Positions 24,347-37,020 of a stretch of DNA of 45,606 nt are shown here, in pieces. The stretch spans positions 1 through 45,606 of the forward strand of contig QHUS01000098.1 of the NCBI GenBank assembly GCA_003222035.1, in the 5' to 3' direction. Below the pieces are notes generated by a model, which worked only from the letters and a program-made list of their open reading frames with translations, searched no databases and was not told where the DNA came from. The stretch comes from Gemmatimonadota bacterium (GTDB lineage: Bacteria; Gemmatimonadota; Gemmatimonadetes; Gemmatimonadales; GWC2-71-9). Position 1 is the first letter of the stretch. Each line of letters opens with the position of its first letter. A program made the position numbers and the translations under genes.

Positions 24347-24350
24347 CAGC

Positions 24351-24428
24351 GTGGTGAGTGGTACGTGGTTGCCGGCGGATCGGGGGAAACCGCCGCTCGC
24401 GGGTGCCACCACGCACCACTCACCACGC
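24351..24428. repeat. Inverted repeat of 7-bp words upstream of cydA
   Basis: Left arm GTGGTGA-GTGGTAC-GTGGTTG (24351-24371), right arm ACCACGC-ACCACTC-ACCACGC (24408-24428). The arms pair over 21 bases with one mismatch (24349-24369 with 24408-24428). The spacer is 36 bases. It lies between the DUF2231 gene and cydA. Confidence 0.8.
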
Positions 24429-24431
24429 CGT

Positions 24432-24437
24432 TAGTTT
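24432..24437 (+). promoter_or_regulatory. Leaderless -10 element for cydA
   Basis: TAGTTT followed by 7 bases (CTAGGCC) and ATG 24445. No Shine-Dalgarno is present. The heptad inverted repeat ends four bases upstream, where a -35 or a regulator would bind. Confidence 0.5.
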
Positions 24438-24444
24438 CTAGGCC

Positions 24445-24945
24445 ATGCCCGACTTGTTGGCGGCCCGCTCCCAGATGGGTATCTCGCTCGCCTTCCATAT
24501 CGTTTTCGCCGTCATCGGCATCGCCATGCCGGTCCTCATGGTCGTGGCGGAGCGGCGCTGGCAGGTGACCGGACACGCGATCTATCTCGACCTCGCCAAG
24601 CTGTGGGCGAAGGGGACCGCCATCCTGTTCGCGGTCGGTGCCGTCTCGGGAACGGTGTTGTCGTTCGAGTTGGGCCTCCTGTGGCCGCGCTTCATGGAGC
24701 TCGCCGGGCCGATCATCGGCATGCCGTTCTCCCTCGAGGGGTTCGCGTTCTTCACCGAAGCGATCTTCCTGGGCATTTATCTATACGGGTGGGACCGGAT
24801 CTCGTCGCGGGCGCACCTCTGGGCCGGGGTGGCCGTGGCGGTGAGCGGGACCGCGTCGGGCGTATTCGTCGTCATCGCGAACGCCTGGATGAACGCGCCC
24901 ACGGGGTTCGAGCTGGTGAACGGGCAGGCAGTGAACGTCGACCCG
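24445..24945 (+). CDS. cydA: Cytochrome bd-type oxidase subunit I, N-terminal part (frame broken)
   Basis: Start MPDLLAARSQMGISLAFHIVF; the His in LAFHIVF is the heme ligand of helix 1. TM2-TM4 follow with SGTVLSFELGLLWPRF (conserved Glu), GMPFSLEGFAFFTEAIFLGIYLYGW and GTASGVFVVIANAWMNAPTGF. The frame is good to VNVDP. At about 24946 one surplus base (A) shifts it; as written, the frame runs to a stop at 25329 through unrelated residues. It reduces oxygen using quinol or a related donor in the inner membrane. Confidence 0.85.
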
Positions 24946-24946
24946 A

Positions 24947-25735
24947 GTCGCCGGGATCCACGCGTGGCTGCTGCTCAAGGATCCCGCCAACGCGTTTCAT
25001 CGCCGGGCGCTCGAGATCGCCCTGCTCGTAGGCGCGCCGGCAGCGGTGCTCCAGCCGATCTCAGGCGACTTCTCGGCGCGCCACATCGCCGGCCATCAAC
25101 CCGTGAAGCTCGCCGCGGCCGAGGCGCTGTTCCACACGCGAGAGGGGGGCGGGGGGGGAGCGGGGGGAGGGGGGGGAACGCCGATCAGCATCATCGGCTG
25201 GCCCGATGTCGCGGCGCGGCAGAATCGGTTCGCCATCGAGATCCCGTACGGGCTATCGCTGCTCGCCTTCCACGACCCGAACGCCGTCGTGCAGGGCCTC
25301 GACGCGGTTCCCGAGAGCGAATGGCCTAACGTCCCGGCCGTGTACTTCTCGTTCCGCCTCATGGTCGCTCTCGGCGCCTACCTCGCGCTGGTCGCGCTCT
25401 GGGCCGGGTGGCTCGCGTGGCGGGGGAGGGACCTGGCGCACAATCGCTGGCTCATGCGCGCGATCGCGCTCGCCACCCCGATGGGATTCATCGCCATAGA
25501 AGCGGGCTGGATGGTGACCGAGCTGGGCAGGCAGCCGTGGGTGATTTACGGCGTTCTGAAAACCCGCGACGCGGTGACCCCCATGCCCGGGCTGGTCGTG
25601 CCGTTCGTGGCCTTCACGCTGCTTTACTGCTTCCTGGGCGTGATCGTCGCCTGGCTCTTGTACCGGCACGTCGTCCGCAGTCCCGCGGTTCCGGAGTGGC
25701 GGGGGTTTTACATGCCGAGAGGGGAGAGCCGGTGA
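24947..25735 (+). CDS. cydA: Cytochrome bd-type oxidase subunit I, C-terminal part (frame broken)
   Basis: Continuation: VAGIHAWLLLKDPANAFHRRALEIALLV, then the H-x-x-G-H-Q turn ARHIAGHQPVKLAAAEALF. The loop after this helix (residues near REGGGGGAGGGGGTPIS) holds a run of glycines coded by a pure G-rich tract (25144-25176). Later helices: QNRFAIEIPYGLSLLAFHD, AVYFSFRLMVALGAYLALVAL, GFIAIEAGWMVTELGRQPWV. With the frame restored the protein is about 430 aa with a short Q-loop, unlike the long E. coli form. cydB follows. Confidence 0.85.
   Translation, partial: VAGIHAWLLLKDPANAFHRRALEIALLVGAPAAVLQPISGDFSARHIAGHQPVKLAAAEALFHTREGGGGGAGGGGGTPISIIGWPDVAARQNRFAIEIPYGLSLLAFHDPNAVVQGLDAVPESEWPNVPAVYFSFRLMVALGAYLALVALWAGWLAWRGRDLAHNRWLMRAIALATPMGFIAIEAGWMVTELGRQPWVIYGVLKTRDAVTPMPGLVVPFVAFTLLYCFLGVIVAWLLYRHVVRSPAVPEWRGFYMPRGESR
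25144..25176 (+). repeat. G-rich low-complexity tract inside cydA
   Basis: Runs of six to eight G separated by C, AGC or A. They encode a Gly/Ala-rich stretch in the periplasmic loop between helices. Four G runs lie close enough to allow G-quadruplex formation in DNA or mRNA. Confidence 0.7.
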
Positions 25736-25742
25736 CGGACGA

Positions 25743-25829
25743 GTGCGTGGCGCGTGGTGCGTGGGAGCCGACGCTGCAAGCCGCGCGTCCGGTCCACACC
25801 GTCAGCAACCACGTACCACGCACCACGTA
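25743..25829. repeat. Inverted repeat of 7-bp words between cydA and cydB
   Basis: Left arm GTGCGTG-GCGCGTG-GTGCGTG (25743-25763), right arm CCACGTA-CCACGCA-CCACGTA (25809-25829). About 19 of 22 bases pair; the spacer is 45 bases. The word is related to that of the repeat upstream of cydA, so cydA is flanked by two copies. Confidence 0.78.
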
Positions 25830-25841
25830 CCGGTCTGTTCC

Positions 25842-26873
25842 ATGACCCTTCCTGACCTCCTCGCGGGCACGATCTTCCTTGCTCTCAACGCATACGCGGT
25901 GCTCGGCGGCGCCGACTTCGGCGGCGGCGTGTGGGATCTGCTCGCCTTCGGGCCCCGCAAGGAGCGCCAGCGGGAGCTCATCGCCGAGGCGATCGGCCCC
26001 GTGTGGGAAGCGAATCATGTCTGGCTGATCCTCGCGATCGTGCTGCTCTTCACCTGCTTTCCGCCCGCGTTCGCGCGGCTCGGCACGCTGCTGCACATCC
26101 CCCTCTCGCTCGTGCTGATCGGGATCGTGCTGCGGGGCTCCGCGTTCACGTTCTGGCGGTACGGTAACCCGGGAGACGAGGCGGAGCGTCACTGGGGCGT
26201 GACGTTCGCCGTCGCGAGTCTCATCACTCCGCTCTTGCTGGGAACGACAGCGGGTGCGATCGCAGCGGGGGCGCTCGGGGAAGCGGGAACGGGGACGGGG
26301 AAAGAGTTCTACGCGACCTACGTCGCGCCGTGGTTGAATCCGTTCACACTCTCGGTGGGGCTGTTCGCGCTGGTAGCGTTCGCGTTTCTCGCAGCCGTCT
26401 ATCTCACACTCGAGGCGCGCGAGCGGGAGGTGCAGGAGGACTTCCGCCGGCGCGCCCTGGCCTCGGGAGTGGGATTGTTCCTCGCCGCGGCGGTGGCGCT
26501 GCTGTTGTCACACCGCTACGCGCCGGTGGTGCGCGAAGCGCTGATCTTCGCGTCGTGGGCGATCCCGCTGCATCTCCTCACGGCGGCGACCGCCGTCACG
26601 GCCCTCGCCGCCCTGTGGGTCCGCCGGTGGCGCGCGGCGCGCGTGGCCGCCGTGGCGCAGGTGTCGCTGATCCTGTGGGGCTGGGCGCTGAGTCAGTATC
26701 CCTACATTCTGCCGCCCGACCTGTCGATCGCCGATGCGGCGGCGCCGCCGGTCACCCTGCGCCTCGTACTCGCCGCACTCGCTCTCGGAGCGGTGCTGTT
26801 ATTCCCTTCGCTGTACTACCTGTTTCGGGTATTCAAGAGCGGTCGTCCGTCGTCCGTTATGCGTCATCCGTAG
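25842..26873 (+). CDS. cydB: Cytochrome bd-type oxidase subunit II
   Basis: 343 aa membrane partner of subunit I. MTLPDLLAGTIFLALNAYAVLGGADFGGGVWDLLA is the classic CydB start, followed by EAIGPVWEANHVWLILAIVLLF and LHIPLSLVLIGIVLRGSAFTFW. Later helices include EALIFASWAIPLHLLTAATAV and SQYPYILPPDLSIADAA. ATG 25842 is the first methionine that gives the family N-terminus. A heptad-like tract (26276-26303) encodes a Gly/Thr insert GEAGTGTGKE. The last residues (SGRPSSVMRHP) are encoded by the left arm of a repeat that also contains the stop codon. Confidence 0.93.
   Translation: MTLPDLLAGTIFLALNAYAVLGGADFGGGVWDLLAFGPRKERQRELIAEAIGPVWEANHVWLILAIVLLFTCFPPAFARLGTLLHIPLSLVLIGIVLRGSAFTFWRYGNPGDEAERHWGVTFAVASLITPLLLGTTAGAIAAGALGEAGTGTGKEFYATYVAPWLNPFTLSVGLFALVAFAFLAAVYLTLEAREREVQEDFRRRALASGVGLFLAAAVALLLSHRYAPVVREALIFASWAIPLHLLTAATAVTALAALWVRRWRAARVAAVAQVSLILWGWALSQYPYILPPDLSIADAAAPPVTLRLVLAALALGAVLLFPSLYYLFRVFKSGRPSSVMRHP
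26276..26303 (+). repeat. Heptad G-rich tract inside cydB
   Basis: CGGGGAA, GCGGGAA, CGGGGAC and GGGGAAA in direct succession. They encode a low-complexity Gly/Thr insert in an inter-helix loop. Confidence 0.6.
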
Positions 26874-26903
26874 TGACGCACGGCGGATTACGGATAACGG
26901 ATG
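26840..26903. repeat. Inverted repeat of 7-bp words at the cydB/cupin junction
   Basis: Left arm CGGTCGT-CCGTCGT-CCGTTAT-GCGTCAT-CCGTAGT (26840-26874), right arm GCGGATT-ACGGATA-ACGGATG (26883-26903). Bases 26852-26870 pair with 26884-26902 at 16 of 19 positions. The cydB stop (TAG 26871) is inside the left arm. Between convergent genes it may also act as a terminator, though no T-run follows. Confidence 0.75.
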
Positions 26904-26906
26904 CCC

Positions 26907-27260
26907 TTACTTCGCGTACGCATCCGCCCCCAGGAAATGGAGCGACACGTAGGGTTCCGTCCCTTCCACCCAGCTGTCGTGTCCGGGGGCGATGTGGAAC
27001 AGGTCGCCCGGCCCGAGCGAAAACGCCTTGCCGTCATCCATGACGACGCGGCACCGCCCTGACACCACGAGCCCGATGTGCTCCACCTGGCAGGTCTTCG
27101 TTCCGACACTGGGGGCCACGTGCGTGGACCACTTCCAGCCGGGGTCGTAGCTGGCGCGTCCCACCACGAGGTTTCCGATCTTCACCACCTCGAACGTTCC
27201 TTTTTCGAAGCGGCGCGTTTCGTCTGGGCGGTCGAAGCGCCGGAGGATCGCGTCTTTCAC
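26907..27260 (-). CDS. Small cupin-domain protein
   Basis: 117 aa from GTG 27260, chosen because AAGGAG lies 7 bases upstream; the open frame extends much further but only as overlap with YggT. One cupin barrel: RRFEKGTFEVVKIGNLVVG, CQVEHIGLVVSGRCRVVMDDGKAF (motif 1 with HIGLVVSGR) and LGPGDLFHIAPGHDSWVEG (motif 2 with PGHDSW), giving His residues for a metal. Cupins of this size may bind small ligands or act as sensors; no substrate is evident. It lies 14 bases after the YggT gene and may share its transcript. Confidence 0.85.
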   Translation of the reverse strand: MKDAILRRFDRPDETRRFEKGTFEVVKIGNLVVGRASYDPGWKWSTHVAPSVGTKTCQVEHIGLVVSGRCRVVMDDGKAFSLGPGDLFHIAPGHDSWVEGTEPYVSLHFLGADAYAK

Positions 27261-27274
27261 GGTACGTCTCCTTA

Positions 27275-27850
27275 TCAGCCGCCGACGATGGTGAGCAGTA
27301 TTTTTTGCAGCACCACGAGCACGAGCCAGGCGGCGAGCGGGCTCCAATCGAACGCCCCCATCGGTGGTAGCACGCGGCGAATCGGCTCGACCAACCAATC
27401 GGTCAGGAAGTACGCCGGCCGCAACCACTTCGTGTATCGGTGGAACCCGAACCAGCTGGCGAACACGCGCACGAACAGCGCGATCACGATCACCTTGTAC
27501 ACCAACCTGATCAGCAGCACGATGGTCCCGTGCGGACCCAGCGACAGGCTCGCGGCCACTTCGTACGCCGTCTCCAGCGCCCACTGCCAGACTGTCACAA
27601 GCACCACCCCGGCCGCCGCCACCCCGACGACCAGCCACCACCCCGCGTGAACAGGGTTGCCGCCGGCCCGCACGACGCGTGTCTCCACCGGACGGAGCAG
27701 CGGGTCGCTCGCGGCTCGGAGCGCCCGGCCGAGCGCGCTGAACGGCGAGACGCGCCGGGTGCGCACCAGCCACCCTGCGACGGCGGCGAGTACGCTCACG
27801 GCGAACGCGGCGAACACGACGTAGCGGACACCATTGTAGAGCTCGGGCAT
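27275..27850 (-). CDS. YggT family membrane protein
   Basis: 191 aa, four to five membrane helices in two YggT-like units. The first has ALGRALRAASDPLLRPVETRV and the second YTKWLRPAYFLTDWLVEPIRRVLPP, the family motif (dPLL.P.R.vlPP). YggT proteins are implicated in osmotic tolerance or, in plastids, thylakoid organisation; the bacterial role is unsettled. No Shine-Dalgarno is present before ATG 27850. TAAACT lies 6 bases upstream and overlaps the -10 of the divergent deacetylase gene. Confidence 0.88.
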   Translation of the reverse strand: MPELYNGVRYVVFAAFAVSVLAAVAGWLVRTRRVSPFSALGRALRAASDPLLRPVETRVVRAGGNPVHAGWWLVVGVAAAGVVLVTVWQWALETAYEVAASLSLGPHGTIVLLIRLVYKVIVIALFVRVFASWFGFHRYTKWLRPAYFLTDWLVEPIRRVLPPMGAFDWSPLAAWLVLVVLQKILLTIVGG

Positions 27851-27854
27851 ACCT

Positions 27855-27862
27855 TAAGTTTA
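27855..27862. promoter_or_regulatory. Back-to-back leaderless -10 elements for YggT and deacetylase genes
   Basis: The 17-base gap 27851-27867 contains TAAGTT on the plus strand (27855-27860, 7 bases before ATG 27868) and TAAACT on the minus strand (27857-27862, 6 bases before ATG 27850). The hexamers overlap by four bases. No Shine-Dalgarno fits either start. It suggests one AT-rich island read in both directions. Confidence 0.55.
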
Positions 27863-27867
27863 GCCCG

Positions 27868-28877
27868 ATGCGCCGGTTCCTTCAGCGGGTCGCCTTCGTC
27901 TACCACGCGAGCTATGCGCGTACCGTTTCCGGGGTGCCGATCGACCCGTCGCGCGCCGACGAAATCCTCGCCTTCCTGCTCGACCGGAAGCTGATCCGTC
28001 GGCGCGACGTCTACCGTCCCATCCCCGCGTCGTACCAGAACCTGCTGCGGGTCCACACGCCGGCCTACCTCGAGTCGCTGCAGGATCCGGCGACGCTCGC
28101 GGCGATTTTCGGGGCGCCGGTGCCGCCCGACGAGGTGCAGGGCATTCTCGACCTCCAGCGCTTGAGCGTGGGGGGGACGATTCAGGCCACGCGACTGGTC
28201 CTCGGGCGAACGGCCCGGATCGCCGTGAACCTGAAAGGCGGGTTGCATCACGCGTCGCCCGAGCGGGGCATGGGGTTCTGTATGTTCAACGACATCGCCG
28301 TGGCGATCCGGCGGCTGCGCGCCGCGCCCCGGAGCTTCGCTGGTCCCGTGCTCGTGATCGATCTCGATCTGCACGACGGCAACGGCACTCGCATCGCGTT
28401 CGCCGACGATCCGAGTGTGCATACGTTCTCGATCCACAACCGCACCTGGGACGACCGGCCCGCGGCGGCGGCGACGAGCCTCGCGCTGGGCGAGGGCGTG
28501 AGCGACGAGATGTACCTCGCCGCTCTGCGCGACGCGCTGCCGCCAGTGCTCCGGGCCCACAAGCCGGGTCTGGTGTTTTACATCGCTGGGTGCGATCCCG
28601 CCGCCGACGACCACCTCGGAGACTGGCACATCACGGCCACCGCCATGCTCGAGCGCGATCGCTTCGTGGTGGAGACCGTGCGGGCGGCAGGAGCGCCTCC
28701 CCTCGTGATCGTTCCGGGTGGAGGCTACGGCCCGAGTGCGTGGCGTTACTCGGCGCGGTTCCTCGGCTGGCTGGCCTCGGGACGCGTGGTCGAGCCGCCC
28801 GGGGACATGGAGCTGGCGCTCGGACGGTTCCGGCCGATCGCGCAACAGTTCGCCGAACGGGCCGTCGCGTTTGGGGG
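27868..28877 (+). CDS. Histone-deacetylase-fold (acetoin-utilisation type) protein, catalytic part
   Basis: Zinc deacetylase fold, about 337 residues. GGLHHASPERGMGFCMFNDIA has the two catalytic His (H127, H128). VLVIDLDLHDGNGT carries zinc ligands D167 and H169, with Asp where most have a second His. YIAGCDPAADDHLGDW holds the third ligand Asp, and VPGGGYGPSAW the catalytic Tyr. It likely removes acetyl or acyl groups from a protein or polyamine. The reading ends at 28911, but the homology-like continuation is in the -1 frame, from a G6 run at 28873-28878. Confidence 0.82.
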
Positions 28878-29657
28878 GATGGGGCGGATCCGATCAACGA
28901 GTGGAGCCTGAGCGAGGCGGACCTGGTCGGGTTGGCCCACGGCGCCCACTCTGAGCCGCGCGTGCTCGAGCACTATTCGCGGCACGGCCTCGAGCTGCTT
29001 CTGGAGCGGCTCGGGTTTTTCAAGCAGCTGCGCGACCGCGGCTTCTCGCACCCGGTGCTAGATGTCGCGTTCGGCCACGCCGTGGGGGGAGACCACACGA
29101 TCCGCGTATTCGGCGACGCCGAGCGGCGCGAGCTCGTGATGGAGTTGCGGCTCAGCCGCAACCGGCGTGTGGTGCCGGGGATGGATGTGCTCTACGTGGA
29201 ATGGCTGCTACTCCAGAACCCACGCGCCGCGTTCGCCGGCCGGCTCGTCCCGCTCCCCGGGCAGGAGCATCCAGGTCTCGGGATGCTGGGAGAGGTCGCG
29301 GCCTGGCTGATCGTGATGTGCGAAACGTTGGGGCTGGACGGCGTGGTGTTCGAGCCCGCGAACTACTATACGGCCGCTCTCGGCCAGCATCGCCTGCGGT
29401 TCCTCGAGCCCGAAGAGCAGGCACGATTCGAAGCGCTGCATGACGCGGTCGCGGGAATGAGCCTCGCCGATGCCGAGCGAACCATCGGCGAGGGCGGCGT
29501 GATCGACAAGGCAACCGGCGAACCGGTGCGCTGGCGTCCGGCGCCGATGGTCGTCCCTGTGAGCGGCCGGCTGCAGGTCCTCGTCACGGGTCCGAGCTAC
29601 GAGCGGGCGCTCGCCGTCGCGCGGGGCGGGGTGCGATTTGGGAGAGTTACGGCGTGA
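28875..29657 (+). CDS. C-terminal domain of the deacetylase-fold protein (frame broken)
   Basis: The open frame continues from GDGADPINEWSLSEADLVGLA through LLLERLGFFKQLRDRGF, RELVMELRLSRNRRVVPGMDV, HPGLGMLGEVAAWLIVMCETLGLDG and VVFEPANYYTAALGQHRLRF to a stop at 29657. The first internal ATG is more than 75 codons in, and no GTG or TTG fits the domain start. It is therefore read as the same gene with a one-base loss in the G6 run. I do not recognise the domain; the beta-beta-helix-strand pattern around HPGLGML and VFEPANYYTAAL vaguely recalls GNAT acetyltransferases. Its stop overlaps the kelch stop by 11 bases. Confidence 0.6.
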   Translation, partial: GDGADPINEWSLSEADLVGLAHGAHSEPRVLEHYSRHGLELLLERLGFFKQLRDRGFSHPVLDVAFGHAVGGDHTIRVFGDAERRELVMELRLSRNRRVVPGMDVLYVEWLLLQNPRAAFAGRLVPLPGQEHPGLGMLGEVAAWLIVMCETLGLDGVVFEPANYYTAALGQHRLRFLEPEEQARFEALHDAVAGMSLADAERTIGEGGVIDKATGEPVRWRPAPMVVPVSGRLQVLVTGPSYERALAVARGGVRFGRVTA

Positions 29658-30567
29658 AGACGTCGACGGCGCTTGTCTGCGCGAACCCGGCCTTGGGGCC
29701 ACCCCCGATTACGTAGAGTTTCCCGCCGAGCGCGGCAGCCGCCAAACCATGGCGCGCCTCGGGGAGGGGGAGCGCGGAGCTCCAACGGTCGGTTGCAGGG
29801 TCGTACACTTCATGGCTCGCGAACACCGAGTTGCGCGTCTCCCCGCCGACCACGTGGACCTTTCCGTCGAGCACCGCCGCAGCCAGCCCGCCGCGCCGGC
29901 TCGGCATCGGTGCGCGCACGCTCCAGCGGTCGGTTGCGGGGTCGTAGGCCTCCACCACGTCGTAGTTGCGGTCGGGGTCGAGCGGACGCCCACCGATCGC
30001 ATACACCAGGCCGCCGACGACCGCGCCGGTAAGGTGGTCACGCGGTGTCGGGATGGGCGCGGCGTCGCGCCAATGGTCGGTCGCCGGCTCGTAGATCGCC
30101 GTCCCCGCCACGAGTCGACGGCCGGGACCCCAGCCTCCCACGACCACGAGCGTGCCACTCACTACGCCGACGCCCGATGCTCCACGCGGTGTCGGAAGTG
30201 GAGCGCGCGGCTCCCAGCGGTTTTGCGCCTCGCGATAGAGCCAGAGCGTGTTCTCGGGCACGAAGTTCTGCCCGGCGAGTCCGCCCACTGCGTAGAGCGT
30301 GTCGCCCACGACGGCGAGGGGCATGTGATGCCGCGCTGCCGGAAGGTCGGCGATCCGCTCCCAACGATTCAGCGCTGGATCGTAGCGGAAGGCCGACGCG
30401 GTGGGTCGTCCCGCCCCGTCGATGCCGCCGGCGACGTAGATCTTGCCGTGCAGGACGGCGGCGGAGAGCTCCTGGGTGGGTTCGGGGAGCGGTGCGGCGG
30501 TGGTCCAGCGGCCGTCGGCGGCGCCGACGAGGGCGGCCGCCGCGAACGCTAGCCCTCGACGACCCAG
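29647..30567 (-). CDS. Exported kelch-repeat beta-propeller protein
   Basis: About 306 aa with five to six kelch units: GKIYVAGGIDGAGRPT, DTLYAVGGLAGQNFVPENT, GTLVVVGGWGPGRRLVAG, LVYAIGGRPLDPDRNYD, GKVHVVGGETRNSVFASHE and GKLYVIGGGPKAGFAQTS, each followed by the W of NRWEP, DHWRD or DRWSS. The first ATG in frame is 30324, but the kelch pattern and a signal-like LAFAAAALVGAADG extend upstream into the end of korB. The best start is CTG 30565-30567, with GAGGGA just before it. The function of secreted kelch proteins is usually protein binding or glycan oxidation; no catalytic motif is seen. Confidence 0.75.
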   Translation of the reverse strand: MGRRGLAFAAAALVGAADGRWTTAAPLPEPTQELSAAVLHGKIYVAGGIDGAGRPTASAFRYDPALNRWERIADLPAARHHMPLAVVGDTLYAVGGLAGQNFVPENTLWLYREAQNRWEPRAPLPTPRGASGVGVVSGTLVVVGGWGPGRRLVAGTAIYEPATDHWRDAAPIPTPRDHLTGAVVGGLVYAIGGRPLDPDRNYDVVEAYDPATDRWSVRAPMPSRRGGLAAAVLDGKVHVVGGETRNSVFASHEVYDPATDRWSSALPLPEARHGLAAAALGGKLYVIGGGPKAGFAQTSAVDVFTP

Positions 30568-31580
30568 GTTCCCTCGCGACGGAGCAGCGCGTCGAGGTCG
30601 GCGGGTTGCCGCCCGAAGCCCGCGGCGCGGGCTTGCGCGTAGACCTCGGCATCGTACGAGGGCGCGGGGTTGCAGTACAGCACGCCCAGCGCGACGGGAA
30701 ACTCGGGGGGTTCGAGCGCGACCAGCAGCTGCGCCAGGGCACGATTGGTCTCGTCGTGCACCAGGATGTCCTGGGGCCGCGCGCCGCCGTCACCGACTTC
30801 CACAACTTCGAGCGCCAGGGTCCCCGGCTTGAGCCGCAGCCCGCGGTCCCCGTTCCGGCCGAACATCAAGGGCCGGCCGTGCTCCACGTGGATCTGCGCG
30901 TCGGGGGCGGCATCCTTCGCGGTGAACTGGTCGAACACCCCATCGTTGAAGACGACGCAATTCTGAAAGACTTCGACGAATGACGCGCCGTGGTGCGCGT
31001 GGGCGCGCTGCAGTAGCTCCACGAGCTCCGCCTGTTGCGTGTCCACCGCCCGGGCGACGAACCGCGCCCCGGCACCCAGGGCGAAGGCGCACGCCGACAC
31101 CGGGTACTCAACCGATCCCTGGGGCGTCGAAGGCGACTGCGTCCCGCGGCGCGACGTCGGCGAATACTGTCCCTTCGTCAGCCCGTAGATCTCGTTGTTG
31201 AACAACACGATCTGGAGATCGACGTTGCGGCGCAGCACGTGCAGCATGTGGTTGCCGCCGATCGAGAGACCGTCGCCATCCCCCGTGATGACCCACACGT
31301 CGAGCTCGGGATTGGCGAGCTTGATCCCGGTAGCGATCGCGGGCGCCCGGCCGTGGATCGTGTGGAAGCCGTAGGTGGACAGGTAATACGGGAAGCGCGC
31401 GGCGCACCCGATCCCAGAGACGAACACCGTCCGCTCGCGTCGCGCGCCGAGCTCCGCCAGCGCCTTCTGCACGGCCTTGAGAATCGCGTAGTCCCCGCAC
31501 CCCGGGCACCACCGGACCTCCTGATCGGAGCCGTAGTCCTTGGGTGCGAGCACGGCATCGGTGATCGTCGTGATCGTCAT
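30549..31580 (-). CDS. korB: 2-oxoglutarate:ferredoxin oxidoreductase, beta subunit
   Basis: 343 aa TPP-binding subunit. VRWCPGCGDYAILKAVQKAL has the CPGCG motif, SGIGCAARFPYYLSTYGFHTIHGRAPA the substrate region, and DVWVITGDGDGLSIGGNHMLH the GDGD TPP/Mg motif, then NNEIYGLTKGQYSPTSRRG. It forms the oxygen-tolerant KorAB type without separate ferredoxin-like subunits. With KorA it converts 2-oxoglutarate to succinyl-CoA and reduced ferredoxin. ATG 31580 overlaps the korA stop (ATGA). The 3' end overlaps the kelch reading frame by 19 bases. Confidence 0.92.
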   Translation of the reverse strand: MTITTITDAVLAPKDYGSDQEVRWCPGCGDYAILKAVQKALAELGARRERTVFVSGIGCAARFPYYLSTYGFHTIHGRAPAIATGIKLANPELDVWVITGDGDGLSIGGNHMLHVLRRNVDLQIVLFNNEIYGLTKGQYSPTSRRGTQSPSTPQGSVEYPVSACAFALGAGARFVARAVDTQQAELVELLQRAHAHHGASFVEVFQNCVVFNDGVFDQFTAKDAAPDAQIHVEHGRPLMFGRNGDRGLRLKPGTLALEVVEVGDGGARPQDILVHDETNRALAQLLVALEPPEFPVALGVLYCNPAPSYDAEVYAQARAAGFGRQPADLDALLRREGTWVVEG

Positions 31581-33430
31581 GTGCGCTTCGCTTCGATGGC
31601 GTGCACGATCTCCGCCACCTTGAACGGTTTCCCTTCGACCTTGCTGAGCCCTTCCGCGGGCACGAGGTACGCGGCTCGCAGCAGCTGCACGAGCTGCCCG
31701 TTGTTCATCTCCGGAACAATGACCCGGTCGAACCGTTTCAACAGGTCGCCGAGGTTGCGCGGGAACGGGTTCAGGTAACGGAGATGGATGTGCGAAACGT
31801 CGAGCCCGTCCTCCCGCGCTTCGTCGACGGCCCGGTGGATCGCGCCATAGGTCGACCCCCACCCCACGACGGCGACCGCGCCGTGATCTTCTCCCAGGGC
31901 CGGCTGCTGAAGCGGGATGTCGTTCGCGATCCCAGCGATCTTCGCCACTCGGGTCCGGGTCATGCGTGCGTGGTTCTCCGGGTCGTACGAGATGTGTCCG
32001 GTGTCGTAATCCTTCTCGAGCCCGCCGATGCGATGCTCCAGCCCCGGCGTTCCCGGCACGGCCCACGCCCGCGCCAACGTGCCCGGGTTGCGGAGGAACG
32101 GATGGAACCCGTCCGGATCCGTGTGGAAGCGGACCGGGAAGCGGGGCAGCGCTGCCGCGTCGGGGAGGCGCCACGGTTCGGCGGCGTGGGCCAGGTATGC
32201 ATCGCTGAGCAGAATCACCGGCGTCATGTACTTGGTCGCGATCCGCACCGCCTCGATCGCGACCGCGAAGCCATCGCTCGCCGACGCCGCGGCGAGCACG
32301 GCGAGCGGGGCGTCCGCGTTGCGGCCGTGCACCGCCTGGAACAGGTCGGACTGCTCGGTCTTGGTAGGCATCCCGGTCGAGGGACCGGCCCGCTGGGAGT
32401 CGACGACCACGATCGGGAGCTCCGTGGCGATGGCGAGACCGAGCATCTCGGTCTTGAGGGCGATGCCGGGACCGGAGCTCGAGGTCACGCCGAGGGCACC
32501 GGCGTAGGCCGCGCCGATGGCGGCACCGATTGCGGCGATCTCGTCCTCCGCCTGGAACGTGATCACGCCGTGGCTCTTGAGATTCGCCAGGGTATGCAGC
32601 AGGAGCGACGCGGGGGTGATCGGATAGCCCGCGAAGACCATCTTCTCGAGTCCCGCGGCGCGCATCCCGGCGATCAGCCCCCACGCGATGGCCTCGGTCC
32701 CGCTCACGGTGCGGTAGCGACCCGGCTCGACCGGCGCGCTCGGCACCGTGTATCCCACCAGATGCTCCGACATCTCGGCGGTTTCGCCGAACGCGTGGCC
32801 CGCGTTCAGCACCGCGACGTTGGCCCGGGCGAGATCCGCGTGGTCGGCGAATTTGCGGCGCAGCCAGTCGATCGTTGCCTGCCGATCGCGCCCGTACATC
32901 CACAGCATCAGGCCGAGCGCCCACATGTTGCGGCAGCGGTGCGCCTCCCGGGTCGACAGCCCGAAGTCCTTGACCGCGTCCGTGGTGAGTCGTGTGATGT
33001 CGAAGGTGAGCACTTGGTAGGGAGCGAGCGACCGGTCTTCCAGGGGATTCGCCGGGAAGCCCGCCTTGGCGAGATTGCGCTCGGTAAACGCGCCCGCGTC
33101 CGCCACTATCGTCCCACCGACTCGCAGGTCCTTGAGCTCGACCTTGAGCGCCGCGGGGTTCATCGCGACGAGCACGTCCACGGCGTCGCCCGGAGTCATG
33201 ACGTCGCGGGCGCCGAACTGAATCTGGAATGCCGACACGCCATACGTCGTGCCCGCCGGTGCTCGAATCTCGGCCGGGAAATCGGGGAACGTGGTGAGGT
33301 CGTTACCGGCGAGGGCCGTTTCCACCGTGAAACGCGAGCCCGTCACCTGCATGCCGTCGCCGGAGTCTCCGGCAAAGCGGATGACGACGGAGTCGCGGGA
33401 TTGGCGGGCTGGGGGGGTGCTGAGCGTCAT
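31577..33430 (-). CDS. korA: 2-oxoglutarate:ferredoxin oxidoreductase, alpha subunit (fused gamma)
   Basis: 617 aa. Residues about 10-200 are the gamma domain: VVIRFAGDSGDGMQVTGSRF, LTTFPDFPAEIRAPAGTTYG and DVLVAMNPAALKVELKDL. Residues 230-500 are the pyrimidine domain: GTEAIAWGLIAGMRAAGL, FAGYPITPASLLLHTLA, EDEIAAIGAAIGAAYAGA, TSSSGPGIALKTEMLGLA and VDSQRAGPSTGMPTKTEQSD. The C-terminal domain ends with IHLRYLNPFPRNLGDLL and VPEMNNGQLVQLLR. This layout matches mycobacterial KorA. A leaderless TAGTTT precedes ATG 33430. The kgd gene lies 66 bases upstream, so the region may be one unit with a second start here. Confidence 0.93.
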   Translation of the reverse strand: MTLSTPPARQSRDSVVIRFAGDSGDGMQVTGSRFTVETALAGNDLTTFPDFPAEIRAPAGTTYGVSAFQIQFGARDVMTPGDAVDVLVAMNPAALKVELKDLRVGGTIVADAGAFTERNLAKAGFPANPLEDRSLAPYQVLTFDITRLTTDAVKDFGLSTREAHRCRNMWALGLMLWMYGRDRQATIDWLRRKFADHADLARANVAVLNAGHAFGETAEMSEHLVGYTVPSAPVEPGRYRTVSGTEAIAWGLIAGMRAAGLEKMVFAGYPITPASLLLHTLANLKSHGVITFQAEDEIAAIGAAIGAAYAGALGVTSSSGPGIALKTEMLGLAIATELPIVVVDSQRAGPSTGMPTKTEQSDLFQAVHGRNADAPLAVLAAASASDGFAVAIEAVRIATKYMTPVILLSDAYLAHAAEPWRLPDAAALPRFPVRFHTDPDGFHPFLRNPGTLARAWAVPGTPGLEHRIGGLEKDYDTGHISYDPENHARMTRTRVAKIAGIANDIPLQQPALGEDHGAVAVVGWGSTYGAIHRAVDEAREDGLDVSHIHLRYLNPFPRNLGDLLKRFDRVIVPEMNNGQLVQLLRAAYLVPAEGLSKVEGKPFKVAEIVHAIEAKRT

Positions 33431-33437
33431 AACCGAA

Positions 33438-33443
33438 AAACTA
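33438..33443 (-). promoter_or_regulatory. Leaderless -10 element for korAB
   Basis: TAGTTT on the minus strand, 7 bases (TTCGGTT) before ATG 33430, with no Shine-Dalgarno. It allows korAB expression independent of kgd. Confidence 0.5.
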
Positions 33444-33496
33444 GTACGGCGACGCTAGGAGGGTAGGGCCTGCCGGTAAACCGGCGGCGCTGCGGG

Positions 33497-36400
33497 CTAG
33501 GACGCGAACGCCTCCGCCACGATCCGAGCCTGTTCCGCCTGGTGCGCCGCCGGGTACCCCTCCGCCGGGCTCGACCGCTCGGGCCGCCCGATGTCGCGCA
33601 CGGTAACGCCCGGACCAACGAGCTCGCGCAGCTGCGGCAGCATGAATTTCTGCGGGCCCATGTTGCGCGGTTCCTCCTGGACCCAGACGATCTCCGTGAT
33701 CGCGGGGTACCGCTTGATCAACTCCGCGAGCTCGGCGGCGGGGAACGGGTAGAGCAGCTCGACGCGGCCGATCGCCACGTGCGTCGCCCGGGCGCGTTGC
33801 GGCGAGAGGAGCAGGTCGTAGTAGACCTTGCCGCTGCACAACACCAGCCGTGTCGCAGTGGCCCGCGTGCCGCCCTCGGGGTCGTCGAGCACGGGCCGGA
33901 ACCGGCCCGCCGTGAGGTCCTCGAGCCGTGACGTGGCCTGGGGCAGGCGCAACAGGCTCTTCGGCGTGAACAGCACGAGGGGCCGCAACTCCGGGTGGCG
34001 CGCCTGGCGCCGCAGCAGGTGGAAGTACTGGGACGGCGTCGTGCAGTTGGCGATCCGGATGTTGCGGTCGGCGCCGAGCGCGAGGAAGCGCTCGATGCGG
34101 GCGCTCGAATGCTCGGGCCCCTGACCCTCGTAGCCGTGCGGCAGCAGCAACGTCAGCCGAGAGGTCTGTCCCCACTTCGCGAGGCCGGCGATGATGAACT
34201 GGTCGATGATCACCTCACCGCCGTTCGTGAAGTCGCCGTACTGCGCTTCCCACAACACCAGCGTTTCGGGCGCCGCGGCCGCGTAGCCGTACTCGAATCC
34301 GAGGCAGGCGAATTCCGAGAGGGGGCTGTTGTGCAGCTCGAACGGTGCTCTGGCCCCGGGTAGGTTCTGGATCGGCGCGTAGCGGCGACCGTCCTTCGCA
34401 TCGTGCAGGACCAGGTGGCGCTGGCTGAACGTGCCGCGTTCCGTGTCCTGCCCGGTGAGGCGGATCGCGGTACCCTCGGCCAACAGCGAGGCAAAAGCCA
34501 GGGCTTCCGCGTGCGCCCACTCGATCTGCCCGCCGCCTTCGGCGAGCGCCGGGCGCCGCCGCTCCAGCTGCTTCATCAGCTTGGGAATGACGGAAAAGCC
34601 GCCGGGCACGGTGAGTAGCTGCTCGTTCAACGTGGTCAACAGGGGCGCACCGACGGCCGTGTCGGGCTCGGTGACCGCTGGGTAGGCGCCGGAGATGCGT
34701 TGCGGCTCTTCGCCTTTCCCGCCGCCCCCCTCGCGCAGGTTCGCCTTGAGCGACTGCTGGATGTCGGCGAGTCGCTGGTACATCTGCTCGGATTCCGAGG
34801 TCGCGTCGGCGGCGGGAACGACGCCGTCGCGCGCGAGCTGATCGGCGTAGCGCTGGCGCACCGGAGGCGTCTGCTTGATCCGCTCGTACATCACCGGCTG
34901 CGTGTATGCCGGCTCGTCACCTTCGTTGTGGCCGTGGCGCCGGTAGCCAACGACGTCGATGACCACGTCGCCGTGGAACTTGTCGCGGTACAGCATCGCG
35001 AGCCGCGCCGCCGCGACGCACGCTTCCGGGTCGTCCGCGTTGACGTGGATGATCGGTGCGTCGAATCCCTTGGCGAGATCGCTGGAGTAGTCGGTCGAGC
35101 GCCCTTCCTTCGGATCGGTGGTGAAGCCGAGCTGGTTGTTCGCGATCAGGTGGATCGTTCCGCCCGTGGTGTAGCCTTTGAGCCGGGCGAGGTTGAACGT
35201 CTCGGCGACCACTCCCTGCGCCGCGAACGACGCGTCGCCGTGGATCAGCACCGGGAGCGCGACCGTCCCATCGTGGATGGGTTCCTTGCCGCGGCGGTTC
35301 GTCTGGTTCGCGCGGGCGCGTCCTTCCACCACCGGGTTCACCGCCTCGAGATGGCTCGGGTTGGGCGTGAGAGTGATGTTGACGGGCTTCCCCGCGGCGG
35401 TCTGGTACACGCCGTCGGCGCCGTGGTGATACTTGACGTCGCCGGTGCCGCCTTCCGGCGTGAGCGTTTCCTCGACATTCCGGCCGCCCTCGAATTCCGC
35501 GAAGATCGTCTCGTACGGCAGGCCGACGATGTGGGCGAGCACGTTTAGCCGGCCGCGGTGCGCCATGCCGAGCACGACGCGCCGGGCCCCGCCCGCGCCG
35601 GCCAGCTCGATGGTCTGATCGAGCATCGGAACCAGCACGTCGAGGCCTTCGATCGAGAAGCGCTTCTGGCCGAGGTACGCCTTATGAAGGAAGCGCTCGA
35701 GTGTTTCGACGGCGGTGAGGCGACCGAGCAGCTTGCGCTGCTGCTCCGGTGCAAGCGGCTTCCGATGCTCGCCCGACTCGATCACCTGCCGCAGCCACAG
35801 GCGCTCCTGATGACTCCCGATGTGCTCCACCTCGTAGGCGATCGTCCCGCAGTACGTCTCCTGGAGCTTCGGGTACGCCTCCGCGAGGGTGCGGCCGGGG
35901 ACGTAGATGCGCAGCACCTCGGCCGGGATCCGGGCCATGATCTCCGGGGTGAGGCCGAGCGGGCCGGGATCGAGCGCGGGATCGCCGGGCGGTTCCGAGC
36001 CGAGCGGGTCGAGGCGCGCGGCCATGTGCCCGAAGTTCCGGAACGCCTTGACCAAGGCCATGGCGGCGGCGACGTGCTTCAACTCGTCGGGGCTCGGGGT
36101 TCGGGGCTCGGGACTCGGAAGTGCCCGTGCTGGAGCCGGTCCGAGCCCCGAGTCCCGAGCCCCGAGCCCCGTGATTGCCAGAGTCTCCGCCACCTGCTCG
36201 TAGAAACGGTCCTCTCCCTGGAGCAGGGAGTCCAGTTTGCGAAGGAAAAGTCCCGATTCCGCCCCCTGAATGATCCGGTGATCGTAGGTCGAGGTGATCG
36301 TCATGATCTTGGCCGGCCCGATCTGGCGGATCGCGCCGGTCGCGATGATCGAGCCCTGACCCTTCAACAGGCGCGGTACCGAGGCGACCGTGCCGATGGT

Positions 36401-36571
36401 GCCCGGATTCGTGAGCGTGATCGTCGCACCCGCGAAGTCGTCGGGAAGAAGCTTGTTGCCGCGCGCCTTCTCCACGAGTGTCTCGTACGTCGTGTGGAAC
36501 GTCGCGAAGTCCATGCCCTCGGCGTGCTTGATGACGGGCACGACCAGGGCGCGGCTGCCGTCCTTCTTATC
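33497..36571 (-). CDS. kgd: Kgd-type 2-oxoglutarate dehydrogenase/decarboxylase, E2 remainder plus E1 (frame broken)
   Basis: Carries the end of the E2-like acyltransferase domain (KKDGSRALVVPVIKHAEGMD, TITLTNPGTIGTVASVPRL, TSTYDHRIIQGAESGLFLR with the catalytic His) and the whole E1: NFGHMAARLDPLG, GMAHRGRLNVLAHIVGLPYE, VNADDPEACVAAARLAMLYR, VVGYRRHGHNEGDEPAYTQP, LLPHGYEGQGPEHSSARIER and VQEEPRNMGPQKFMLPQL. It follows the mycobacterial multifunctional form, producing succinyl-CoA or semialdehyde. Its linker between E2 and E1 is encoded by a heptad inverted repeat (36088-36168). Continuity with the N-terminal part is lost at about 36568-36572. Confidence 0.88.
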   Translation of the reverse strand, partial: DKKDGSRALVVPVIKHAEGMDFATFHTTYETLVEKARGNKLLPDDFAGATITLTNPGTIGTVASVPRLLKGQGSIIATGAIRQIGPAKIMTITSTYDHRIIQGAESGLFLRKLDSLLQGEDRFYEQVAETLAITGLGARDSGLGPAPARALPSPEPRTPSPDELKHVAAAMALVKAFRNFGHMAARLDPLGSEPPGDPALDPGPLGLTPEIMARIPAEVLRIYVPGRTLAEAYPKLQETYCGTIAYEVEHIGSHQERLWLRQVIESGEHRKPLAPEQQRKLLGRLTAVETLERFLHKAYLGQKRFSIEGLDVLVPMLDQTIELAGAGGARRVVLGMAHRGRLNVLAHIVGLPYETIFAEFEGGRNVEETLTPEGGTGDVKYHHGADGVYQTAAGKPVNITLTPNPSHLEAVNPVVEGRARANQTNRRGKEPIHDGTVALPVLIHGDASFAAQGVVAETFNLARLKGYTTGGTIHLIANNQLGFTTDPKEGRSTDYSSDLAKGFDAPIIHVNADDPEACVAAARLAMLYRDKFHGDVVIDVVGYRRHGHNEGDEPAYTQPVMYERIKQTPPVRQRYADQLARDGVVPAADATSESEQMYQRLADIQQSLKANLREGGGGKGEEPQRISGAYPAVTEPDTAVGAPLLTTLNEQLLTVPGGFSVIPKLMKQLERRRPALAEGGGQIEWAHAEALAFASLLAEGTAIRLTGQDTERGTFSQRHLVLHDAKDGRRYAPIQNLPGARAPFELHNSPLSEFACLGFEYGYAAAAPETLVLWEAQYGDFTNGGEVIIDQFIIAGLAKWGQTSRLTLLLPHGYEGQGPEHSSARIERFLALGADRNIRIANCTTPSQYFHLLRRQARHPELRPLVLFTPKSLLRLPQATSRLEDLTAGRFRPVLDDPEGGTRATATRLVLCSGKVYYDLLLSPQRARATHVAIGRVELLYPFPAAELAELIKRYPAITEIVWVQEEPRNMGPQKFMLPQLRELVGPGVTVRDIGRPERSSPAEGYPAAHQAEQARIVAEAFAS
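36088..36168. repeat. Inverted heptad repeat within kgd (E2-E1 linker)
   Basis: Left arm CGGGGCT-CGGGGTT-CGGGGCT-CGGGACT (36088-36115), right arm CCGAGCC-CCGAGTC-CCGAGCC-CCGAGCC (36141-36168). With three flanking bases, 28 of 31 pair; the spacer is about 25 bases. In the protein the tract reads GLGARDSGLGPAPARALPSP and further Pro/Ser-rich residues, a plausible flexible linker. Confidence 0.85.
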
Positions 36572-37020
36572 GCGAAGCCGATCAGATGCGTGAACGAGAT
36601 CTTCTTGCCGGACTGGGCGAGCTGCGCGTTGAGCTCACGGCGCCGGACATCGAGCACGTCCACAGCGATTTCGCGGAACGAAGTGGCAGTGGGGACCGAC
36701 AGGCTGTCGGTCATGTTCTGCGCGAGACGGGCCGCGGGGCCGGTGATCGGGGTCAGATGCTCGGGAGGGGGGAGGGGGGGGGGAACGCGAGACGGGGGCC
36801 GGGTGCCTTCAGTGGAGGCGATCGACCCGTCCCTCGTTCCCCGTCCCTCGTCCCGCAGGACTTCGGCGCGGTCCGTCGGAATCACCGGCAGCTCGGCAAG
36901 CTTCCCGTTGTCAAACAGCTGCCGCCACTCCTCGCCGACCGAGGCAGGATCCCGCAGGTACTGCTCGTACATCACCTGCACGAACGCGGCGTTGTGCGTG
37001 CCGAACACGAACTCGCTCAC
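36568..37020 (-). CDS. kgd: Kgd-type 2-oxoglutarate dehydrogenase, N-terminal part (frame broken)
   Basis: GTG start at 37020. MSEFVFGTHNAAFVQVMYEQ with YLRDPASVGEEWRQLFDNG is the N-terminal E1-type segment of Kgd. A low-complexity linker (DEGRGTRDG, TRPPSRVPPPLPPPE) encoded by repeat 36780-36856 follows. Then comes the start of the E2-like domain: LTPITGPAARLAQNMTDSLS, ELNAQLAQSGKKISFTHLIG. After FAI the family has about 38 further residues before the next recognisable motif, and they are missing here. As read, the frame continues as nonsense to 36364. No Shine-Dalgarno is present; TAAATT lies 6 bases upstream. Confidence 0.85.
36780..36856. repeat. Inverted heptad repeat within kgd (N-terminal linker)
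   Basis: Right arm CCCGTCC-CTCGTTC-CCCGTCC-CTCGTCC (36826-36853), a nearly perfect 14-bp doublet. The left arm at 36780-36798 (GGGGAACGCGAGACGGG) pairs with it at about 16 of 18 positions. A G12 run precedes it. It encodes the Pro/Arg-rich linker of Kgd. Confidence 0.72.

Follow-up and report, generated by a model that had tools for sequence, protein, structure and literature searches.

The window analysed here, a 45,606-nucleotide stretch of Gemmatimonadota DNA (contig QHUS01000098.1 of assembly GCA_003222035.1, which is contig C19 of our genome G000, 3.58 Mb in 130 contigs and 94% complete), contains five palindromes whose arms are built of tandemly repeated seven-base words, three of them around the cydAB genes and two in linkers of the kgd gene. 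In related genomes palindromes of the same period and fold occur at orthologous sites with the word itself replaced in both arms. Inverted heptad pairs are a kind of object already known from Xanthomonas and Geobacter, and this turnover of the word at orthologous sites is the main comparative finding. We propose that these are dispersed hairpins of 7-base words, rewritten by out-of-register template switching and by copying between elements, a reading to which we give an even chance of being right. The earlier observation of the five loci is partly confirmed, and the interpretation offered with it, here called the original prediction, is partly supported.

Turnover of the word at orthologous sites

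Site C, between two Mur-ligase genes, carries an element in seven of the nine same-genus genomes with a match (not in G003 and G008). Its word is GGATTGC in G000, G001 and G002, GGARTGC in G007, GGAATGC in G006, GGAACGC in G009 and GGAGTGC in G005; loop and flanks can be aligned across species, and the changed word is found in most units of both arms. Over 53 units from 6 species (G002 was excluded as a near twin of G000), units agree at word positions 4-5 to 0.79 inside a species and to 0.48 across species, which 0 of 2000 permutations reach, and left and right arms agree to 0.79 in the same species and 0.47 in different ones. The sequences are predicted to fold as long hairpins, with energies from -57 to -72 kcal/mol. 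In G009, the genome richest in the dispersed family F2 (AACGCGGAAGTSGGAACGCGGAACAG), site C carries the F2 word, and the sister species G001 and G009 (support 0.91) differ at site C as well as at both kgd linkers.

The kgd gene, whose product Pfam identifies as a 2-oxoglutarate dehydrogenase bearing an acyltransferase domain and an N-terminal segment, has matches in 41 of 41 searched genomes, those in G005 and G006 being only weak or partial. Linker and junction tracts of the relatives were extracted with tblastn anchors, which gave the sequence of the two linkers for 12 relatives (ten genomes and two named loci) in addition to the window. At linker 1 the 12 relatives carry words other than that of the window, L034 having none that is periodic, and at linker 2 most do so, with G009 and L029 sharing GGGGCTC. 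The commonest words, given as linker 1 / linker 2, are GGGACGA / GGGGCTC in the window (where the G-run of linker 1 scores higher), GGGGGAC / GGGGCTC in G009, GGGGAGA / GGGAGCA in G008, GGGAGAC / GGGAGCC in G002, GGGGAGC / GGGGAGC in G003, GGGAAGA / GGGAAGC in G001, GGGAGAC / GGGAGGC in G024, GGGGGAT / GGGGGAT in G019, GGGGAAA / GGGAGCA in G007, GGGAGCC / GGGGAGA in G020, GGGGTTC / GGGGCTC in L029 and none / GGGGGAC in L034, those of G004 being weak in both. Judged by eye, linker 2 ends on its right at one and the same conserved codon in 9 of 13 cases, and by eye no heptads are seen in linker 2 of G010-G013 and G016-G018, which belong to other genera.

The kgd arms had been predicted to encode in-frame linkers. 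This agrees with the relatives, nine of which have a kgd frame open over 1207-1294 amino acids, enough to span both linkers, but in the present assembly the frame is split. A new word brings with it a new DNA sequence of the linker, so conservation of the arms as codons does not apply, and the persistence of period and fold under changing words, which had been seen between loci of the window, holds also at orthologous sites between species. Outside the genus, inspection by eye of the kgd linkers of L168 (G014) and L183 (G040) revealed period-9 GGGGCAGNN and CCGNNGA/CCGCACA-like tandem words. A run of N lies inside the linker 1 hairpin of L030 and L158, as if the palindrome had broken the assembly or been masked.

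At the cydA-cydB junction a periodic tract is present in 8 of 11 species by a k-mer measure, in 7 of them as a single arm. These single-arm tracts have words other than that of palindrome 2, the element at this junction in the window; G004 has a degenerate palindrome with the same word, and G009 and G001 show no periodic tract there. The sites of one species resemble each other: the k-mer cosine between linkers 1 and 2 is 0.303 within and 0.065 between species (p=0.0007, n=12), for linker 2 against the cyd junction it is 0.365 and 0.052 (p=0.0026, n=6), and for linker 1 against the junction 0.232 and 0.063 (p=0.04, n=6), while one site compared across different species gives 0.041-0.088.

At two further sites some congeners have an element and others have none. 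Site A, between the peptidyl-tRNA hydrolase and ychF genes, is full in four, reduced to a remnant in one and empty in four of nine same-genus genomes; at site B, which follows a VIT-family gene, three of ten genomes have a full element and seven have an empty site. At site A the arms of G000 and G001 are oriented opposite to those of G002 and G009 (by eye), the flanks being alike. A possible target-site duplication, TGA on both sides, is seen there in G009, G002 and G000, not in G001. At the corresponding place upstream of ychF, locus L264 of the other-genus genome G015 has a palindrome of 8-base words (GGACGGTA-like, by eye).

The palindromes of the window and their period

All five palindromes reported earlier were located in the sequence at the positions given for them (Table 1). 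The scan used, which looks for two 21-base arms, each of period 7, reverse-complementary to each other and separated by a gap of at most 60 bases, recovers four of the five, three at a stricter setting and all five when up to 6 mismatches are allowed. Each locus had been said to have its own word; this is wrong for loci 1 and 2, which use one heptad (GTGGTGC) in two rotations, leaving four words at the five loci. This heptad, with the loop edge GTTGC, defines family F1, and the loop edge of palindrome 1 (GTTGC...GCAAC) is found again in other F1 copies. Among the relatives, G002 and G008 have a counterpart of palindrome 3 at the corresponding position, with its word unchanged, and G006 has a single arm. 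At the cydB place matching the single-arm tract of Table 1, G009 has (GGGGGAC)n by eye.

Table 1. Heptad elements of the window, with their words and surroundings
Element	Position	Strand	Word	Location
Palindrome 1	24348..24429	.	CGTGGTG, family F1	1 base past the stop of a TPR-repeat gene (ends 24346); cydA begins 15 bases beyond
Palindrome 2	25741..25833	.	CGTGGTG	Fills the cydA-cydB junction; cydA stop 5 bases before, cydB start 8 bases after
Palindrome 3	26841..26906	.	CCGTNNT	Between convergent cydB and cupin gene; left arm overlaps cydB 3' end (cydB to 26873)
Palindrome 4	36084..36176	.	GGGGCTC/GGGACTC	kgd linker 2, after the acyltransferase domain
Palindrome 5	36762..36856	.	GGGACGA/GGGACGG	kgd linker 1, after the N-terminal segment
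Single-arm heptad tract	26276..26302	+	CGGGGAA-like	Inside cydB; found by Tandem Repeats Finder (TRF)

At the setting that recovers four loci, the window yields 4 loci of period 7, none of periods 4, 5, 6, 8 and 10, one each of periods 9 and 11, and 6-14 for periods 12-14, because the scan then requires too few matches. In 699,831 bases of G000 (a non-random sample, several of its contigs having been chosen for matching the locus-1 region), with thresholds at similar chance levels, we found 22 palindromic arrays of period 7, against 8 of period 8, 5 of period 10, 4 of period 4, 2 of period 9 and 0 each of periods 3, 5, 6, 11 and 12. Three Markov-1 resamplings of this sample contained no period-7 array, so that the enrichment over randomised sequence on which the original prediction depended is present. 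By eye, 9 of the 22 arrays carry the locus-1 word and 13 do not. Palindromes of the runner-up period 8 in G000, GTCGGACN and TAGCCGGG-like, lie at L018:3140, L024:10736, L027:7152, L152:10290, L023:3835 and L146:545.

Concerning the setting of these elements, Pfam recognises cydA as two pieces, next to cydB, a gene for a cupin protein, and kgd, and the top named matches of the window kgd are Gemmatimonadetes metagenome-assembled genomes (MAGs). Both cydA (24445-25735) and kgd (33497-37020) are split across two frames in this assembly, which are likely assembly errors. Homopolymer-like stretches of G at 25140-25177, inside cydA, and 36763-36783, in kgd linker 1, are perhaps due to sequencing or assembly error; the G-rich arm of palindrome 5 (36762-36805) begins in the latter and may thus be partly erroneous. 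At the Rfam gathering threshold the window shows only a SAM_alpha riboswitch (RF00521, 23335-23410 on the minus strand, 50.7 bits against a gathering score of 36), with no match at the palindromes.

Word families, genomic position and taxonomic breadth

The sample contains several dispersed families, among them F1, F2, CCGTCAT, GGATTGC and GGGGCTC. Pattern matches were counted on both strands, one match corresponding roughly to one arm with a few arms counted twice, and reversed patterns gave control totals over 61 genomes of 0 for F2, 6 for F1 and 1 for F3 (GGGAGCGGGGAGCAGGGAGCGGTACC, the family of G003). Across the ten same-genus genomes the counts range over 0-102 for F2, 0-26 for F1 and 2-83 for F3. 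F2 occurs in 13 of the 61 genomes (102 matches in G009, 80 in G002, 61 in G000, 39 in G008, 25 in G006 and 0 in G003, with 23 in the other-genus genome G019); F1 likewise in 13 (26 in G000, 7 in G002, 6 in G007, none in G009, G001 and G003); and F3 in 21 (83 in G003, 7 in G000 and 4 in G009, with 68 in G042, from another family of the order). Family abundances thus form genome "dialects" that differ many-fold between species, and this dispersal with unequal abundance supports the copying mechanism that had been suggested for the elements.

The genomic context was assessed on 60 period-7 palindromes from a scan of five genomes and two further loci, a set that includes the kgd and cyd contigs and is hence non-random, with gene positions from a crude gene caller that called 92% of the sequence coding. 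Between co-directional genes lie 35 elements, 16 are in coding sequence, 5 between convergent and 3 between divergent genes (one of these being the miscalled kgd linker 1 of the window), and 1 at an edge. For the 35 co-directional elements the median distance is 0 bases on the side of the upstream stop and 13 on that of the following start; in 28 of them one end is no more than 10 bases away from that stop, and 26 are closer to the stop than to the start (binomial p=0.003). A general role as intrinsic terminators is unsupported: of the 40 elements whose neighbouring genes are co-directional or convergent, just 3, site B among them, have TTTT on the 3' side.

Breadth was surveyed on 80 named kgd loci, which were sorted into groups according to the titles of their records. 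Acidobacteria loci hold 7 period-7 palindromes in 151 kb (in L091, L092, L096 and L107), several with AT-richer words such as CAACATT, and none of the other periods from 4 to 12. Gemmatimonadetes loci hold 4 in the 37 kb of the two closest loci and 2 in the remaining 429 kb, and none was found in 720 kb of Chloroflexi, Actinobacteria, Eremiobacterota, Bacteroidota and others.

Mechanism and alternative explanations

In the mechanism that we propose, DNA polymerase would jump from a unit of one arm to an out-of-register unit of the other as its template and, more rarely, to a copy of the element elsewhere in the genome. When the fold-back is in register, one arm would be repaired from the other; when it is shifted by 7 or 14 bases, the sequence of one unit would be spread along the arms, so that a point change would be either lost or spread through the whole element. 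Whole elements would also be copied into old and new sites, as suggested by G003, in which kgd linker 1, linker 2 and locus L218:18265, on another contig, have an arm and the start of the loop in common. Inserts are predicted to survive mostly where they are harmless, namely immediately past a stop codon or within a loose linker of a protein.

Template switching between short inverted repeats, as described in parts of PMC8604942, homogenises arms and inverts spacers, also in coding DNA, and passages of PMC8794818 describe how it maintains stems. The repeats treated in these passages are simple, whereas here the period would let a single event also homogenise along the arms. The homogenised arms of site C and the inversion at site A correspond to these signatures, and from such comparisons we infer, rather than observe, replication-associated template switching as the rewriting process. 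Arms pair in a register shifted by a multiple of seven (score of at least 12) in 47 of the 60 elements and in another shift in 1 of 60, a pairing that any palindromic tandem array allows. A corrected toy model retained both pairing (0.90) and period (0.85) only when anchors were 5 bases long and each mutation was accompanied by 200 switches, which lends weak support to template switching, and at high switching rates only. As regards a loss of the hairpin nuclease SbcD as a possible cause, all 61 genomes give a weak TIGR00619 match, above the cut-off in 3.

Several results weigh against this mechanism. The evidence is a comparison of assemblies, mostly MAGs, in which no mutation is observed directly. 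Two early toy models lost the period in every mode, and with 7-base anchors the corrected one keeps it only to 0.42. RNAalifold finds changes on both sides in 5 of 34 pairs, with a slightly unfavourable covariation term. Another word measure gives p=0.03 for linkers 1 and 2 and p=0.003 and 0.18 for the two pairings with the cyd junction, and a run with 8 species gave p=0.026. Only 2 of 12 species have the same most frequent word in linker 1 as in linker 2, and 6 of 12 share one of the top two words between the linkers; moreover, the linkers lie less than 1 kb apart in one gene, so part of their likeness may reflect local exchange. Some sites keep their word across species, as does CCGTCAT after cydB and F1 at site B. 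Finally, exact heptad doublets are only 1.6-fold enriched over resampled sequence, less than doublets of 6-, 9-, 10- and 12-mers (2.0, 6.8, 4.3 and 5.0), hence the 7-base step is clear only in longer or inverted arrays.

Rewriting by template switching and copying has to be weighed first against a purely mobile origin, in which several palindromic families resembling miniature inverted-repeat transposable elements (MITEs), each with its own word, would reinsert at a few harmless sites, the most active family winning. The dispersal of the families, their strongly unequal abundance, the patchy occupation of sites A and B and the arm and loop start shared by the three G003 sites would all follow. 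At site C, however, loop and flanks are orthologous though the word differs, and the kgd elements of the window and its relatives occupy the same two linkers. No convincing target duplication was seen, and no mobilising enzyme was found in a search that covered the Y1_Tnp and RVT_1 families only. We consider this account possible but rather unlikely.

Heptad microsatellites that slip separately in each arm, with selection for an RNA or DNA hairpin keeping the arms complementary, are an improbable source. Heptads are over-represented among long bacterial simple repeats, for which polymerase slippage has been proposed (in passages of PMC4692102 and PMC4679880), and the single-arm tracts of the cyd junction fit such a process, but two processes would be needed, together with a hairpin selected in protein linkers and in junctions that are bare in congeners. 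Toy models of slippage lost both features, in a test that was unfair to it (overwriting had a fixed length, and one model could import loop bases).

We likewise place little credence in selected binding sites or RNA signals, where the word would be read by a regulator or nucleoid protein and would change with it. Pairs in Geobacter have been interpreted as sites of a global regulator (in parts of PMC2700814), and the co-directional elements are mostly at the 3' end of the upstream gene; yet four words occur within one 12-kb stretch, individual sites change alone, and elements lie within kgd and are lacking from orthologous sites of congeners.

Mobilisation of repetitive extragenic palindromic (REP) doublets forming hairpins (REPINs) by a REP-associated tyrosine transposase (RAYT, a Y1 transposase) is very unlikely. 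The elements are inverted doublets with loops, intergenic and in many copies, and Y1_Tnp has a match in 11 of 26 genomes and in 6 of the 10 same-genus ones, but there is no fixed REP sequence, the word differing between elements and between orthologous sites. RAYT mobility was rejected on the absence of Y1_Tnp matches from G000 and G002, two genomes of 94% and 93% completeness that contain 61 and 80 F2 matches; Y1_Tnp gives none either in G004 and G007 (65% and 73% complete). Tandem G-rich words of fixed length and genome-specific spelling resemble telomerase products, but an origin from a template-copying reverse transcriptase (RT), telomerase-like or of the defence-associated (DRT) kind, can practically be dismissed, RVT_1 (PF00078) being matched in 0 of 26 genomes and in 3 of 14 control genomes.

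A wider form of the proposed rewriting would be a genome-wide concerted evolution with a fixed 7-base step, working without RAYT or RT, in which the dialects overwrite old hairpin sites in both arms, even in a central enzyme, and which would extend to Acidobacteriota with words of their own. This we put forward tentatively, with clearly more doubt than belief.

Relation to known repeats and significance

The elements had been thought to differ from the known short tandemly repeated repetitive (STRR) sequences. This is only half right: as inverted heptad pairs they do not, since such pairs have been published for Xanthomonas and Geobacter, and the differences include the change of word at orthologous sites. 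Passages of PMC4692102 describe GGGAATC heptad repeats in Xanthomonas, where they form inverted pairs, and in Nostoc. Like these, the present elements are convergent inverted pairs, mostly intergenic and near an upstream stop codon. In the same passages a genome has a single class of word, which is interpreted in terms of G-quadruplexes, whereas here there are several words per genome, some without GGG (CGTGGTG, GGAACGC, CCGTNNT and GGATTGC), whole-word change at orthologous sites, and protein linkers. A single GGGNATC-like G-quadruplex word does not describe them.

Closer in its number of families is Geobacter metallireducens, which according to parts of PMC2700814 has several families, in three of which 3-5 tandem copies of a 7-, 8- or 9-mer face each other on the two strands across a variable spacer, and GGACCGG heptad elements that are both genic and intergenic. 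The present genomes likewise have more than one family of words each, arranged as pairs of 3-5 units on opposite strands. The Geobacter pairs were interpreted as binding sites, an IHF/HU-type regulator being proposed, and one class is pentamer-based; the passages of PMC2700814 contain no word-by-word comparison of orthologous sites. They do report a different conserved sequence in the proBA space of G. sulfurreducens, which may be the same phenomenon as the word turnover described here.

REPINs, as described in parts of PMC3116915, share the arrangement of inverted doublets as hairpins in dispersed miniature elements and differ by their REP sequence groups and their association with RAYT, which G000 lacks. 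The TAACTGA repeats of Beggiatoaceae are also dispersed, mostly intergenic heptads, but they form 169 direct-repeat sets and one indirect set of a single word, mostly upstream of start codons (passages of PMC4679880). Searches of the open-access literature brought up no report of words turning over at orthologous sites. In-frame palindromic inserts within proteins are familiar from the Rickettsia palindromic elements, which are not known to have a heptad structure.

Orthologous sites at which the word has changed as a block are a natural record of the process that changes it. They make testable the idea of a replication error with a 7-base step that would both build and maintain hairpins; heptads are oddly favoured among bacterial tandem repeats, and in passages of PMC4692102 and PMC4679880 slippage is put forward as a hypothesis for this. 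The kgd linkers show that protein linkers are open to wholesale rewriting, and the elements call for caution when RNA structure is read from alignments, as covariation in such stems may stem from copying rather than from selection on the RNA.

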